The position numbers and the translations under genes were made by a program. 64,000 bases of DNA from Gemmatimonadaceae bacterium. Lineage in GTDB: Bacteria > Gemmatimonadota > Gemmatimonadetes > Gemmatimonadales > Gemmatimonadaceae. Positions 17,338 to 22,059 of this stretch are shown piece after piece; position 1 is the first letter of the stretch, and every line of letters begins with the position of its first letter. The notes below the pieces were generated by a model that worked only from the letters and a program-made list of their open reading frames with translations, did not search any database and was not told the DNA's origin. The stretch spans positions 1-64,000 of the forward strand of contig JADLCY010000007.1 of the NCBI GenBank assembly GCA_020846935.1, written 5' to 3'.

Positions 17338-19290
17338 TCAGTCGCCGGCGGCGGACGCCGCTTCCGCGGCGACCTCGGCGCGTTCTACACGCACCGCGCA
17401 GGCCTTGAACTCGGCGGTACCGGACCTCGGGTCCGACACGTCGATCGTGAGCAGGTTCGTGGTGACGTCGTCGGGGAAGTGCAGCGTCATGAATACCAGG
17501 TTCTGGCGGAGCGCGGGATCGATGCGGGCGGGCGCCAGCACGCTGCCACGACGCGAAGAAACACGCACCATGTCGCCGGTCGCGATCCCAAGCCGCTCGG
17601 CGTCTTCGGGGGAAAGGTCGAGCGTCTCGCCGAAATGCAGTGGGGAGTTGTAGCCGCCCGACTGCACGCCTGTGTTGTACGACTCCAGCCGGCGCCCGGT
17701 CGTGAGGAGCATCGGGTACTCCGGGGTGCGTTCCTCGTGCGGCGGCGTGTGGTGCACCACGCTGAACGGAGCCAGCGGTCCGCGGGCCGGCTGTTCCCAG
17801 AGGCGACCGTGGAGGAATTGCGAGCCCGGGTGCGACGTGTCGGGGCACGGCCATTGGATCCCGTCGAGCGCATCCAGGCGTTCGTACGACATGCCACCCA
17901 CAAAGTCCGGAGCCAGCGCGCGGACCTCGTTCCAGACCTCTTCGGCCGTCGGCGTCGTCCAGGCGTGGCCCATGCGCCGCGCGAGTTCCGAGATGATCCA
18001 CAGCTCGTCGCGGGCGCCGGCCGGCGCATCCAGGGCCTTGCGCACGCGCTGCACGCGGCGCTCGCTGTTGGTCACGGTGCCCTCGCCCTCGCACCACGTC
18101 GCTGCTGCCGGAAGCACGACGTCGGCCAGCTCTGCCGTCTTTGTGAGAAAGATCTCCTGCACCACGAGGTGGTCCAGGCTCTCGAGCGCGTGTCGCACGT
18201 GATGCGCGTCGGCGTCTGATTGCGCCGGGTTCTCACCGATGCAGAGCAACGCCTTCATGCGGCCGTCGGCCATGGCGTGCAGCATCTGCGTGAGGTTGTA
18301 GCCGTAGGTGGGCTGGATCGGCACGCCCCACGCCTTCTCGAATCGGGCCCGCGCCTCGTGGTCCTGCTCGATGTCCTGGAATCCGGCGAGCTTGTTGGGA
18401 ATCGCGCCCATGTCACCGCCGCCCTGCACGTTGTTCTGGCCACGCAGCGGGTTGCAGCCCGCGCCCCAGCGCCCCACCTGGCCCGTCAGCAGGCACAGGT
18501 TGATGAGGGCCAGGACGTTGTCGACCGCGTTGTGGTGTTCGGTGATGCCGAGCGTCCAGCAGATCATCGCGCGGGGGGCGCGGGCGAAGGCGATCGCGGC
18601 TTCCCGAATCACGTCGCCCGGCACGCCCGTCAGGGTCTCGGCCACATCCAGCGTGTAGGGCTCGACGGCATCGCGGTAGGCCGCGAACCCTGTCGTGGAG
18701 TTCCCGATGAACGCCTCGTGCTGCAGCCCTTCGTGGATGATCACGCGGGCCATGGCGTTCGACAGCGCGACATCGCTGCCCACGCGCAGCCCACACCACA
18801 CGTCGGCCCACTGCGCACTGGAGGTACGCCGCGGGTCCATGACGTAGAGGCGCGTGCCGTGGTGCCGAATGCCCTTGAGAAGGTGATGGAACCAGATCGG
18901 GTGGGCCTCACGGGCGTTCGAGCCCCAGAGGAACACCACGTCGGTTTCCTCCACTTCTTCGTACGAGTTGGTCCCGCCACCCGCTCCAAACACTGTCGCC
19001 AGACCGACGACGCTGGGAGCGTGTCAGGTACGGTTGCAGCTATCGACGTTGTTGGTGCCGAACGCGACTCGACTGAGTTTGCCAGCCAGGAAGTTCACCT
19101 CGTTGGTGCTCTTCGAGCAGCTGAACGTCCCGATGGCGTTCGGGCCCAGGGTGTCCTTCACCCGGCGAAAGCCGGCGGCGGCGCGGTCCAGGGCCTCGTC
19201 CCATGTGGCGGGACGCAGGTGGCCGTTGTCGCGCACCAGCGGCTGCGTGAGCCGGGTGTAGGGGCGTGGAGCGTTTGATCGACGGGGCAT
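17338..19290 (-). CDS. fdhF: Formate dehydrogenase catalytic (molybdopterin) subunit, predicted selenoprotein with in-frame UGA
   Basis: Read through one TGA (19024-19026), the gene encodes 650 residues. The sequence around it is NNVDSCNRT-U-HAPSVVGL, which aligns with the active site of FdhF-type formate dehydrogenases, where Sec or Cys is followed by the catalytic His; the Sec would be residue 89. A hairpin with a GGUCU loop lies directly downstream (separate entry). Later motifs are VVFLWGSNAREAHP, LYVMDPRRTSSAQWAD, WTLGITEHHNAVDN, NPLRGQNNVQGGGDMGAIP and the C-terminal MGD-binding LTTGRRLESYNTG. The usual N-terminal [4Fe-4S] CxxCxxxC domain is absent: the protein starts at the domain boundary and an in-frame stop lies upstream. 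The reaction is formate to CO2. Simple gene callers would split it into an 88-residue and a 551-residue piece. Confidence 0.9.
18995..19026 (-). promoter_or_regulatory. UGA selenocysteine codon and bacterial SECIS-like hairpin
   Basis: The UGA is at 19024-19026 in mRNA orientation. Starting 12 bases after it, GUCGUC (19006-19011) pairs with GGCGAC (18995-19000), six pairs with one G-U, closing a five-base loop GGUCU (19001-19005). E. coli fdhF has a GGUCU apical loop bound by SelB, and its loop also begins after 18 bases following UGA (comparison from memory of that gene). The hairpin is part of the coding sequence, as in other bacterial SECIS elements. No selA, selB, selD or tRNA-Sec gene was seen in this window. 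Confidence 0.8.
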
Positions 19291-19465: not shown

Positions 19466-20587
19466 GTGTCGCGAGCCAGAAAGGCGCATCAGCGCAAACC
19501 CCTCCTCGTGTGGGTCCTCGTACCGCACGTGGAAGCCACCGATCCCACGCTCGCCTGCTACAGTGACTTCAGCCAGAGTCACGGCGAGTTCCAGCGCGCC
19601 TTCGAGCACCTCGAGCTCGCCTGGCGGTGGCAGCCCGTCACCATGCGGGACTACCGCGACGTGATCGACCGGATCGCGAGGGACACGGCCATGCATGCGC
19701 CCGTCGTGTTCAACCTCTGCGATGGTGACGAGGTCAACAGCGTCCCGGGTATCTCGGTGGTGCGTTACCTCGATGAGGTCGGGCTCCCCTATACGGGCGC
19801 AGACGCGTCGTTCTACCACGTGACGACGTCGAAGATCGACATGAAGCACGCGTTCGATGCGGCGGGAGTGCCCACGTCGCCGTGGTCGGTCGTGACGCCT
19901 TCCACGCGGCCGCTGGGCGGGCTGTTCAACCGGCACGGCAAGCCGCTGATCGTGAAGCCCGCCGTCTCGGCCGGCAGCCTGGGGATCTCGGTCAAGTCGG
20001 TCGTCGAAACGGTGACGGCCCTCAGGACGCAGCTCAGCACGCTCGAGGCCGGGTATCACGGCTGGAACCTTGCGAGCGGCGGTGTCTTCGTGGAGCGCTT
20101 CATCAAGGGGCCGGAGTTCACGACGCTCATCGTGGGATCCACCGACGCTCCCGAGCGGGCCACGATCTACCCCGCCGTGGAACGTGTCTTCCATGATGGA
20201 CTGCCGGCCACCGAGCAGTTCCTGTCGTTCGATCGCCTGTGGGAGGTGTACGAAGAGGAGTCGCCGATCGAAGGGGGCGAGTGGCTGTGGGAGTACCAGC
20301 CGGCCCCCGCCGCGCTCCAGCAGCGGATCGCCGAGGTGAGCTGGGCGGCCTATGCGTCCGTTGGCGGCCGCGGGTACGGCAGGGTCGACCTGCGGATGGA
20401 CGCACGCACGCGGGAACTGTTCGTCCTCGAGGTCAACGCCCAGTGCGGCCTTTCCGAGGACGAGAACTACACGTCGATCGGCGCCATCCTGCGCTTTGCC
20501 GACCGTACGTTCGCCAGCATGGTCCGCGAGATCGTGGATGGCGCACTCACCAGCCACGTCGCAGTGCCGCTGCGGAGGCGTGCATGA
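19466..20587 (+). CDS. ATP-grasp ligase (D-Ala-D-Ala ligase-like), first of a tandem pair
   Basis: A 373-residue protein from GTG. It has an N-terminal alpha/beta region (LLVWVLVPHVEATDP; VVFNLCDGDEVNSVPGIS), then an ATP-grasp domain: PLIVKPAVSAGSLGISV (ATP-binding Lys and glycine loop), VERFIKGPEFTTLIVG, GRVDLRMD and LEVNAQCGLSEDEN, which carries the Asp / Glu-x-Asn magnesium ligands. It is built like D-Ala-D-Ala ligase, which joins an acyl-phosphate to an amine, but the substrate-binding part is different, so the product is probably another amide or peptide. It overlaps the next gene by ATGA, and that gene is a clear paralogue (both share VNLC/FNLC, LPxTG, YHV and MK landmarks). No peptidoglycan genes are adjacent. 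Confidence 0.88.
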   Translation: MSRARKAHQRKPLLVWVLVPHVEATDPTLACYSDFSQSHGEFQRAFEHLELAWRWQPVTMRDYRDVIDRIARDTAMHAPVVFNLCDGDEVNSVPGISVVRYLDEVGLPYTGADASFYHVTTSKIDMKHAFDAAGVPTSPWSVVTPSTRPLGGLFNRHGKPLIVKPAVSAGSLGISVKSVVETVTALRTQLSTLEAGYHGWNLASGGVFVERFIKGPEFTTLIVGSTDAPERATIYPAVERVFHDGLPATEQFLSFDRLWEVYEEESPIEGGEWLWEYQPAPAALQQRIAEVSWAAYASVGGRGYGRVDLRMDARTRELFVLEVNAQCGLSEDENYTSIGAILRFADRTFASMVREIVDGALTSHVAVPLRRRA

Positions 20588-22059
20588 AGGTCTGCGTGCT
20601 GCAGCCGGACTATTCCACCTCGAACGTCGACTACAAGAACTACGATCCCCCGCGCGACCTCGCGCGACTCCTGCCTGACGACACGGTCGATCACGTCGCA
20701 CTCAACAAGCTGACCACCTACCGTCAGCTGCGTGACCTGTCGACGCAGGGCTATGACGTGTTCGTAAACCTCTGCGAGGGCTATCTGGAGTGGGACGTAC
20801 CGTCCATCGACGTCGTGGACACGCTCGAGCGGCTGAACCTCCCCTTCACCGGGCCCGTGTCCAAGCTCTATCACGTGCCGAAGCCCCTCATGAAGTACGT
20901 GGCGTACACCGCGGGCGTCACCACACCACGGCACGCGCTCGTTCGTCATGCGCCCGAGGCACACGGCCTCACGAGTGGGCTCCGCTACCCGCTGTTTGTC
21001 AAGCCTTCGCACGCCGGTGACAGTCTGGGCATCGACGAGCGGTCGCTCGTGCGCGACCCGGCGGATCTCGAACCGCAGGTCGCGCGCATTCTGGCCGACT
21101 ATCCCGAAGTGCTCATCGAAGAGTTCATCGAGGGTCGTGAGTTCACGGTGCTCGTCCTCGGCGCGATCGAGGAAAAGGGAGATCCCGTGGCGCTGACTCC
21201 GGTCGAGTTCGTGTTCCCCGCCGACACCCACTTCAAGACCTACGCGTTCAAGACGTCCGAGCTGCATCCCGACGCCAACGTTCCCGTGCGCGACGGGGAC
21301 CTCGCCGCGCGGCTCAAGGACGCCGCCATCAAGGTGTTCCGGGCGTTCGGCGGCATGGGGTACGCGCGCATGGACTTCCGTTGCGACGCGGGCGGCACGA
21401 TCCACTTTCTCGAAGTGAACTTCACGTGCTCCGTCTTCTACCAGGACGGCTACGAAGGTTCGGCGGACTACGTGCTTGCCCACGACGGGATGGGACAGGC
21501 TGGCTTTGCGCAGCACATCATCGCCGAAGCGATCGCGCGTCATCGCCGGGCACAACCGCCCTACGCCATGCAGGGCAACGCCATTTCGGGATACGGCATC
21601 TTTGCCACGCGCGACCTTGAACCCGGGGATCTTGTCTTTCGCGGCGAGGAGCGGGCGCAGCGCGTCGTGACCGCTCGACACGTGGATCGCACGTGGCACG
21701 CCGACGATCGCTCGATGTTGCGGCGCTATGGCTACCCGCTGGGCAACGACCTGTTCGTCCTGTGGGATGACGACCCCACGCAATGGGCGCCCACCAACCA
21801 CTCGTGCGAGCCCAACGCGGCCTTTGATGGGCTCAACGTGGTGGCGATGCGGCGGGTCCGCCGTGGCGAAGAGATCACACTCGATTACGGCGCCTTTCTC
21901 GATGAGGCCTCGGAGCCGTTCCGCTGTACCTGCGGCGCCGTGTCCTGCCGGGGGCTGGTCAAGGGCTCGCGCGGTACGTCGGTCGCTGCGCCGCCCAGGC
22001 CAGCGCGCAAGCGCCGCTCTGCGCGGACGCCGGTTGGCGTCTCGCGCTCACCGGACTGA
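20584..22059 (+). CDS. ATP-grasp ligase fused to a SET methyltransferase domain
   Basis: A 491-residue two-domain protein. Residues 1 to about 325 are a D-Ala-D-Ala-ligase-like ATP-grasp (FVNLCEGYLEWDVPSID, LFVKPSHAGDSLGI, IEEFIEGREFTVLVLG, ARMDFRCD, HFLEVNFTCSVFYQDGY). Residues about 329-460 are a SET domain: GYGIFATRDLEPGDLVFRG, the SAM-site NHSCEPN (405-411), GEEITLDYG with the catalytic-type Tyr435, and a post-SET-like CTCGAVSCRG. A basic tail (PARKRRSARTP) follows. SET enzymes methylate lysine side chains, so the fusion could methylate the ligase product or a carrier protein. The gene is translationally coupled to the preceding ATP-grasp gene and overlaps convergent gluQ by 12 bases. Confidence 0.9.
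   Translation: MKVCVLQPDYSTSNVDYKNYDPPRDLARLLPDDTVDHVALNKLTTYRQLRDLSTQGYDVFVNLCEGYLEWDVPSIDVVDTLERLNLPFTGPVSKLYHVPKPLMKYVAYTAGVTTPRHALVRHAPEAHGLTSGLRYPLFVKPSHAGDSLGIDERSLVRDPADLEPQVARILADYPEVLIEEFIEGREFTVLVLGAIEEKGDPVALTPVEFVFPADTHFKTYAFKTSELHPDANVPVRDGDLAARLKDAAIKVFRAFGGMGYARMDFRCDAGGTIHFLEVNFTCSVFYQDGYEGSADYVLAHDGMGQAGFAQHIIAEAIARHRRAQPPYAMQGNAISGYGIFATRDLEPGDLVFRGEERAQRVVTARHVDRTWHADDRSMLRRYGYPLGNDLFVLWDDDPTQWAPTNHSCEPNAAFDGLNVVAMRRVRRGEEITLDYGAFLDEASEPFRCTCGAVSCRGLVKGSRGTSVAAPPRPARKRRSARTPVGVSRSPD

Follow-up and report, generated by a model that had tools for sequence, protein, structure and literature searches.

The window, the whole stretch of 64,000 nucleotides of Gemmatimonadaceae DNA that we analyzed, contains two coupled genes between positions 19466 and 22059, here called P1 and P2. 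Both had been placed at these coordinates in a preliminary description of the sequence and both were present there, with the stop codon of P1 and the start codon of P2 overlapping in the tetranucleotide ATGA. The features of the locus are as follows.

19466..20587, + strand: P1, stand-alone Ddl-like ATP-grasp carboxylate-amine ligase (PF07478, alignment, TIGR01205 below cut-off)
20574..20578, + strand: GGAGG, ribosome-binding site of P2, within the 3' end of P1 (sequence)
20584..22059, + strand: P2, ATP-grasp ligase-SET methyltransferase fusion, 491 aa (Pfam, homologue alignment)
20584..21549, + strand: ATP-grasp half of P2, residues 1-322 (AlphaFold model, Ddl fold)
21550..21978, + strand: SET and post-SET domain of P2, residues 323-465 (PF00856, invariant residues)

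P1 runs from a GTG codon at 19466 to a TGA at 20587 (373 aa), and P2 from an ATG at 20584 to a stop at 22059. The mechanical ORF of P2 opens earlier, at 20239, but its homologues all start at the methionine encoded at 20584. Together with the ATGA overlap and the GGAGG located five bases 5' of the ATG, this identifies 20584, and not 20239, as the start of P2. By gene names assigned on reading the sequence, the pair is preceded by a divergent formate dehydrogenase operon and followed by a convergent gluQ-like gene, so that P1 and P2 look like a self-contained transcription unit. Promoter and terminator scans gave no signal above chance, and a search of the window for tRNA genes found none.

The adjacent formate dehydrogenase genes showed features of their own. 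The catalytic subunit (19290-17338, - strand) contains an in-frame TGA at 19024-19026, in the context NRT-TGA-HAPSVVG, which we take to be the selenocysteine position of E. coli FdhF (RVUHGPSV). The subunit is thus probably a selenoprotein whose gene is interrupted in standard ORF calls. The iron-sulfur N-terminal part is a gene of its own, and a single 617-aa ORF combines NuoE- and NuoF-like parts (these genes cover 15459-14446 and 17309-15456, - strand).

To characterize the ligases, we compared both proteins with Pfam and TIGRFAM models and determined residue conservation from 25 homologues from Gemmatimonadota and Bacteroidota. P1 and P2 matched Dala_Dala_lig_C (PF07478) above the gathering cut-off, with E-values of 1.2e-12 and 1e-21, respectively. 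The active-site residues K164, R306, D308, E322 and N324 of P1 are kept in the 25-sequence alignment; in the ligase half of P2, K140, R262, D264 and N279 are invariant and E277 is nearly so. In the Ddl family, residues of this kind are expected to bind ATP and Mg. In the AlphaFold model of P2 (mean pLDDT 80), residues 1 to ~325 adopt the Ddl fold, and the best VIA match of this half was DdlA (8evx; Z 29.2, rmsd 2.7 over 280 residues). Thus, by profile match, fold and invariant residues, P2 carries a Ddl-type ATP-grasp domain with its ATP/Mg site. On the other hand, scores against the D-alanine--D-alanine ligase model TIGR01205 were only 63.2 bits for P1 and 80.4 bits for P2, far below the cut-off of 245.65, indicating that neither is a true Ddl enzyme. 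An assignment as true Ddl or Van ligase was rejected on these family cut-offs, and the view of the pair as tandem Ddl-like ligases distinct from Ddl itself, put forward in the preliminary description, was borne out.

The two proteins therefore have the ATP-grasp fold and the ATP/Mg residues in common with Ddl and VanA/VanG (COG1181, TIGR01205), but differ from them in family score, in the fusion to SET, in the absence of a cell-wall context and in the end of the substrate motif, which reads NAQCGLSEDE in P1 and NFTCSVFY in P2. In the P1 motif, which lies near the second-substrate site, the usual Ddl serine is apparently replaced by an acidic residue. Read against Ddl, this replacement would suit a cationic partner substrate.

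The C-terminal part of P2 matched the Pfam SET model (PF00856) with E=1.7e-10 and 41.7 bits (cut-off 22.4). It contains the motifs GYG (336-338), NHSCEPN (405-411), GEEITLDYG (428-436) and CTCGAVSC (448-455), and residues G336, G338, N405, H406, C408, Y435, C448, C450 and C455 are invariant among the 25 homologues. They correspond to what is expected of SET enzymes, namely a SAM site, a catalytic tyrosine and, for the post-SET zinc, four ligand cysteines. With its GxG and NHxCxPN motifs, tyrosine and post-SET cysteines, P2 is a member of the SET methyltransferases, consistent with the full C-terminal SET domain recognized earlier. The basic tail that had been described behind it is real in this P2, but it varies among homologues and is modeled with a pLDDT below 50; we rejected it as a functional part of the protein.

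Which known SET enzymes the fused domain resembles most was less clear-cut. In single-sequence comparison it scored 47.8 bits with MLL1 and 33.4 bits with BurB, and in profile comparison 47.6 bits with KMT2D and 46.5 bits with BurB. At the sequence level its resemblance to lysine methyltransferases of the MLL type is thus no weaker than that to BurB, and it is not clearly nearer to BurB than to MLL. With the H3K4 methyltransferases of the MLL/KMT2 group, its best single-sequence match, it shares the canonical SET and post-SET zinc residues, but in P2 the hairpin between the NHSCxPN and GEE motifs is 8 residues shorter, and P2 is bacterial and fused to a ligase. A short hairpin after NHSCxPN is shared with BurB, as read from alignments. 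Note that the SET part of the AlphaFold model is of moderate confidence, and that the matches listed in a structure search with the whole P2 model were Ddl chains, so that this search barely probed the SET half.

A search for the ATP-grasp-SET architecture across genomes, which the preliminary description had proposed as a check, found that the fusion recurs in Gemmatimonadota and Bacteroidota and also in green sulfur bacteria. When named genomes were searched by pattern, 35 loci were obtained from Gemmatimonadota and Bacteroidota (Chitinophagaceae, Cyclobacteriaceae and others), with P1 directly upstream of P2 in all 35. Across phyla, homologues of P1 and P2 share 44-66% identity and have intact active sites, indicating that the feature is not due to chance. 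Mean pairwise identity across phyla was 63% for the ligase half of P2, 54% for its SET half and 52% for P1. The divergence of P1 and that of P2 were correlated (r=0.81, Mantel p<0.0005). In one locus (L032), the module is GC-rich and Gemmatimonadota-like, but the title of the record is Candidatus Kuenenia stuttgartiensis; the contig is possibly mis-binned.

P2 homologues fell into two types, type I scoring over 700 bits and the diverged type II scoring 350-450 bits. Among 298 Gemmatimonadota genomes, 31 encode P2, 22 of type I and 9 of type II (one partial). P1 was present in all 22 type I genomes and in none of the 9 with type II; its single further occurrence, in diverged form, was in genome G286. 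Type I was found in 6 and type II in 11 of 395 Bacteroidota genomes, a sample that includes the chosen centre genome. Nine of these 11 type II genomes encode the FMO antenna protein, identifying them as green sulfur bacteria. Type II is a diverged form of the fusion that occurs solo in green sulfur bacteria and in further Gemmatimonadota. In a maximum-likelihood tree, P1, P2-I and P2-II were separate and the outgroups sat on long branches. P2-I and P2-II formed sister groups, so the ligase-SET fusion is older than their split.

We analyzed the gene neighborhoods of these relatives. In 22 of the 35 loci the pair is accompanied by a stand-alone SET gene, which most Bacteroidota have upstream of P1 and some Gemmatimonadota downstream of P2. 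In 13 of the 35, a gene for a PF13748 membrane protein, without an ATPase domain of its own, follows directly downstream; about two thirds of the type I loci are missing the transporter. Genome G517 has P2 alone on one contig, and P1 and the stand-alone SET together on another. The type II operon of green sulfur bacteria has the order stand-alone SET, ATP-grasp-SET, full ABC exporter (PF00664+PF00005) and a third small SET, giving three SET domains in three genes (L117:6848-11112, and similarly L115 and L118-L124). This operon is complete in six genomes, and three more, cut by contig ends or ORF choice, are consistent with it. A third, unfused arrangement occurs in G286 (L137:4062-9863), with a BurB-like stand-alone SET, an ABC exporter and three ATP-grasp ligases (one P1-like, one P2-like without SET, and a further Ddl-like one). 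Thus, ligases, SET enzymes and transporters co-occur in three arrangements, the transporters belonging to two families. The lack of biosynthetic neighbors stated in the preliminary description accordingly holds for the window but not for relatives, which carry one or two more SETs and a transporter. Cell-wall genes did not adjoin the module in the window, nor were they conserved neighbors, in line with the preliminary description.

The genome of the window contains only the two-gene core. A search of this genome for the stand-alone SET and the PF13748 gene found neither, and their presence elsewhere in it was rejected; the argument from context therefore rests on the relatives. The ABC_membrane_3 (PF13748) protein is rare, with one copy each in three of eight genomes searched (G300, G303 and G304), in two of which the gene lies within this operon. 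In a single case an ABC ATPase (NBD) gene is inserted between P1 and P2 on the opposite strand (L016:6967-7959, - strand).

Several other kinds of system were considered. Housekeeping genes aside, no conserved small ORF that might encode a precursor peptide was found within 1.5 kb of the module at 29 loci, and a RiPP or graspetide cluster was rejected. PADLOC defence models gave no match up to an E-value of 0.01, and an anti-phage defence system was rejected likewise, as was a plasmid-borne element, since plasmid sequences gave no match at 1e-20.

The stand-alone SET of the relatives could be placed more clearly than the fused one. BurB was its best match by profile (74 bits, compared with 39 for the next chain), in Foldseek (5e-11 and 5e-7, respectively) and in VIA-align (Z 14.7 and 11.3). 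This SET, which neither the window nor the rest of its genome encodes, is thus closest to BurB, in sequence and fold, rather than to histone methyltransferases. BurB converts free methionine to S-methylmethionine (PMC7496086), and its structure and methionine methylation have been described (PMC12542666). Positions that are invariant in the stand-alone SET family are matched in BurB by T73, Q75, Y124, S126 and E128 (the T-x-Q and Y-x-S-x-E positions) and by a G-A pair that follows the last zinc cysteine. As BurB binds methionine mostly via main chains, these matches support kinship and not a particular substrate. BurB, the closest solved structure, acts in the malleicyprol/DMSP pathway and provides a precedent for a SET enzyme in a biosynthetic cluster with a free amino acid as substrate; however, it is not fused to a ligase, and its partners are a decarboxylase, a transaminase, a dehydrogenase and an NRPS-PKS. 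The lysine methylation posited in the preliminary description was accordingly an assumption, since the accompanying SETs are nearest to BurB and the fused SET is undecided between MLL-type enzymes and BurB. Ligation before methylation, the order given in the same description, was likewise an assumption.

We consider it probable that P1 and P2 form the core of a small gene cluster that synthesizes a methylated, peptide-like small molecule. With ATP, each ATP-grasp domain would convert a carboxylate to an acyl phosphate and join it to an amine, so that the two domains could make two amide bonds. The SET domain of P2 would use SAM to methylate an amine (or thioether), either on the same building block or on the peptide. 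In many relatives, the separate BurB-like SET would prepare or finish another methyl group and the membrane transporter, where present, would move the product. In the genome of the window the two-gene core stands alone. This reading draws on the domains, the intact active-site residues, the coupling and co-inheritance of the genes and the SETs and transporters that recur in relatives. We infer from these that the substrates would be free amino acids or small peptides, and likewise how many bonds are made, which atom is methylated and that the product is exported. A methylated peptide-like metabolite had already been suggested as one of two possibilities, beside modification of a protein, and the recurrence of SETs and transporters with the ligases in relatives supports the metabolite. 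More tentatively, the SET domains fused to or beside Ddl-like ligases might install a permanent charge, as methylsulfonium or quaternary ammonium groups, on amino acids of exported di- or tripeptides. Such a new class of natural-product cluster would span Gemmatimonadota and Bacteroidota as well as green sulfur bacteria, and its accessory SET would be distantly related to BurB.

Alternatively, the module might modify a protein, the ligases adding amino acids to a cellular protein, as RimK and tubulin ligases do, and the SET domain methylating its lysine. Protein lysines are the usual substrates of SET enzymes, and the 47.8-bit match of the fused SET to MLL1 is in line with this. Some ATP-grasp enzymes act on proteins, as predicted for the CDC123 group (PMC4431377), and in human TTLL12 a SET-like domain is combined with a TTL (ATP-grasp) domain (PMC3520985). 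However, no conserved candidate target gene was found among the neighbors of the module, although the target may be encoded elsewhere. Moreover, SETs of the same clusters are nearest to a small-molecule methyltransferase, transporters recur with the module, and the ligase fold is that of Ddl (Z 29). We therefore regard protein modification as rather unlikely. A cell-wall role, in which a modified dipeptide from the ligases would enter peptidoglycan or another envelope polymer and the methyl group would serve as a marker or protection, seems improbable: the nearest characterized enzymes are indeed Ddl and Van ligases, but the scores lie far below the cut-offs of these families, cell-wall genes do not accompany the module, and its distribution is patchy (31 of 298 genomes). 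Slightly less probable still is a regulatory role, in which the SET domain would methylate the ligases or another protein outside the product chemistry; the fusion would set it beside a possible protein substrate, but the two to three SET domains per cluster in relatives, and the cluster in which the SET enzyme is separate from the ligases, fit methylation of the product better.

Among the closest known parallels are the tandem ATP-grasp amidoligase operons for peptide-derived metabolites, in which linked ligases carry out successive ligations, as would P1 and P2; in the accessible text of the account, a SET partner is not described (PMC4431377). In a full-text literature search, TTLL12 was the only protein found to combine SET and ATP-grasp-type domains. 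In contrast to P2, it is eukaryotic, has the opposite domain order and is of TTL rather than Ddl type (PMC3520985); it lacks critical residues and was reported to be inactive in vitro (PMC3520985). None of the family models and defence models names an ATP-grasp-SET module. Two older surveys, that of amidoligases by Iyer et al. 2009 and that of bacterial SET genes by Alvarez-Venegas et al. 2007, might mention SET-ligase links and thus contain prior notice of the architecture; the latter discusses Chlorobium, according to PMC3980110. In the literature searched outside these two surveys, no paper was found that describes the module or assigns it a product, in agreement with the earlier statement that no system of such design has been characterized.

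In conclusion, the module belongs to a known kind of chemistry, ATP-grasp peptide or amide biosynthesis, and there is a real chance that it represents a new natural-product class. To our knowledge, almost all known SET enzymes methylate lysines of histones or other proteins, BurB being a rare small-molecule case. If the proposed function is correct, the conserved ligase-SET fusion, the extra SETs and the exporters would establish small-molecule chemistry as a regular function of SET domains in bacteria, a caution that not every bacterial SET protein should be taken for a methyltransferase of chromatin or proteins. An ATP-grasp domain adjoining SET would then provide a genome-mining handle on an undescribed group of metabolites in poorly studied phyla.
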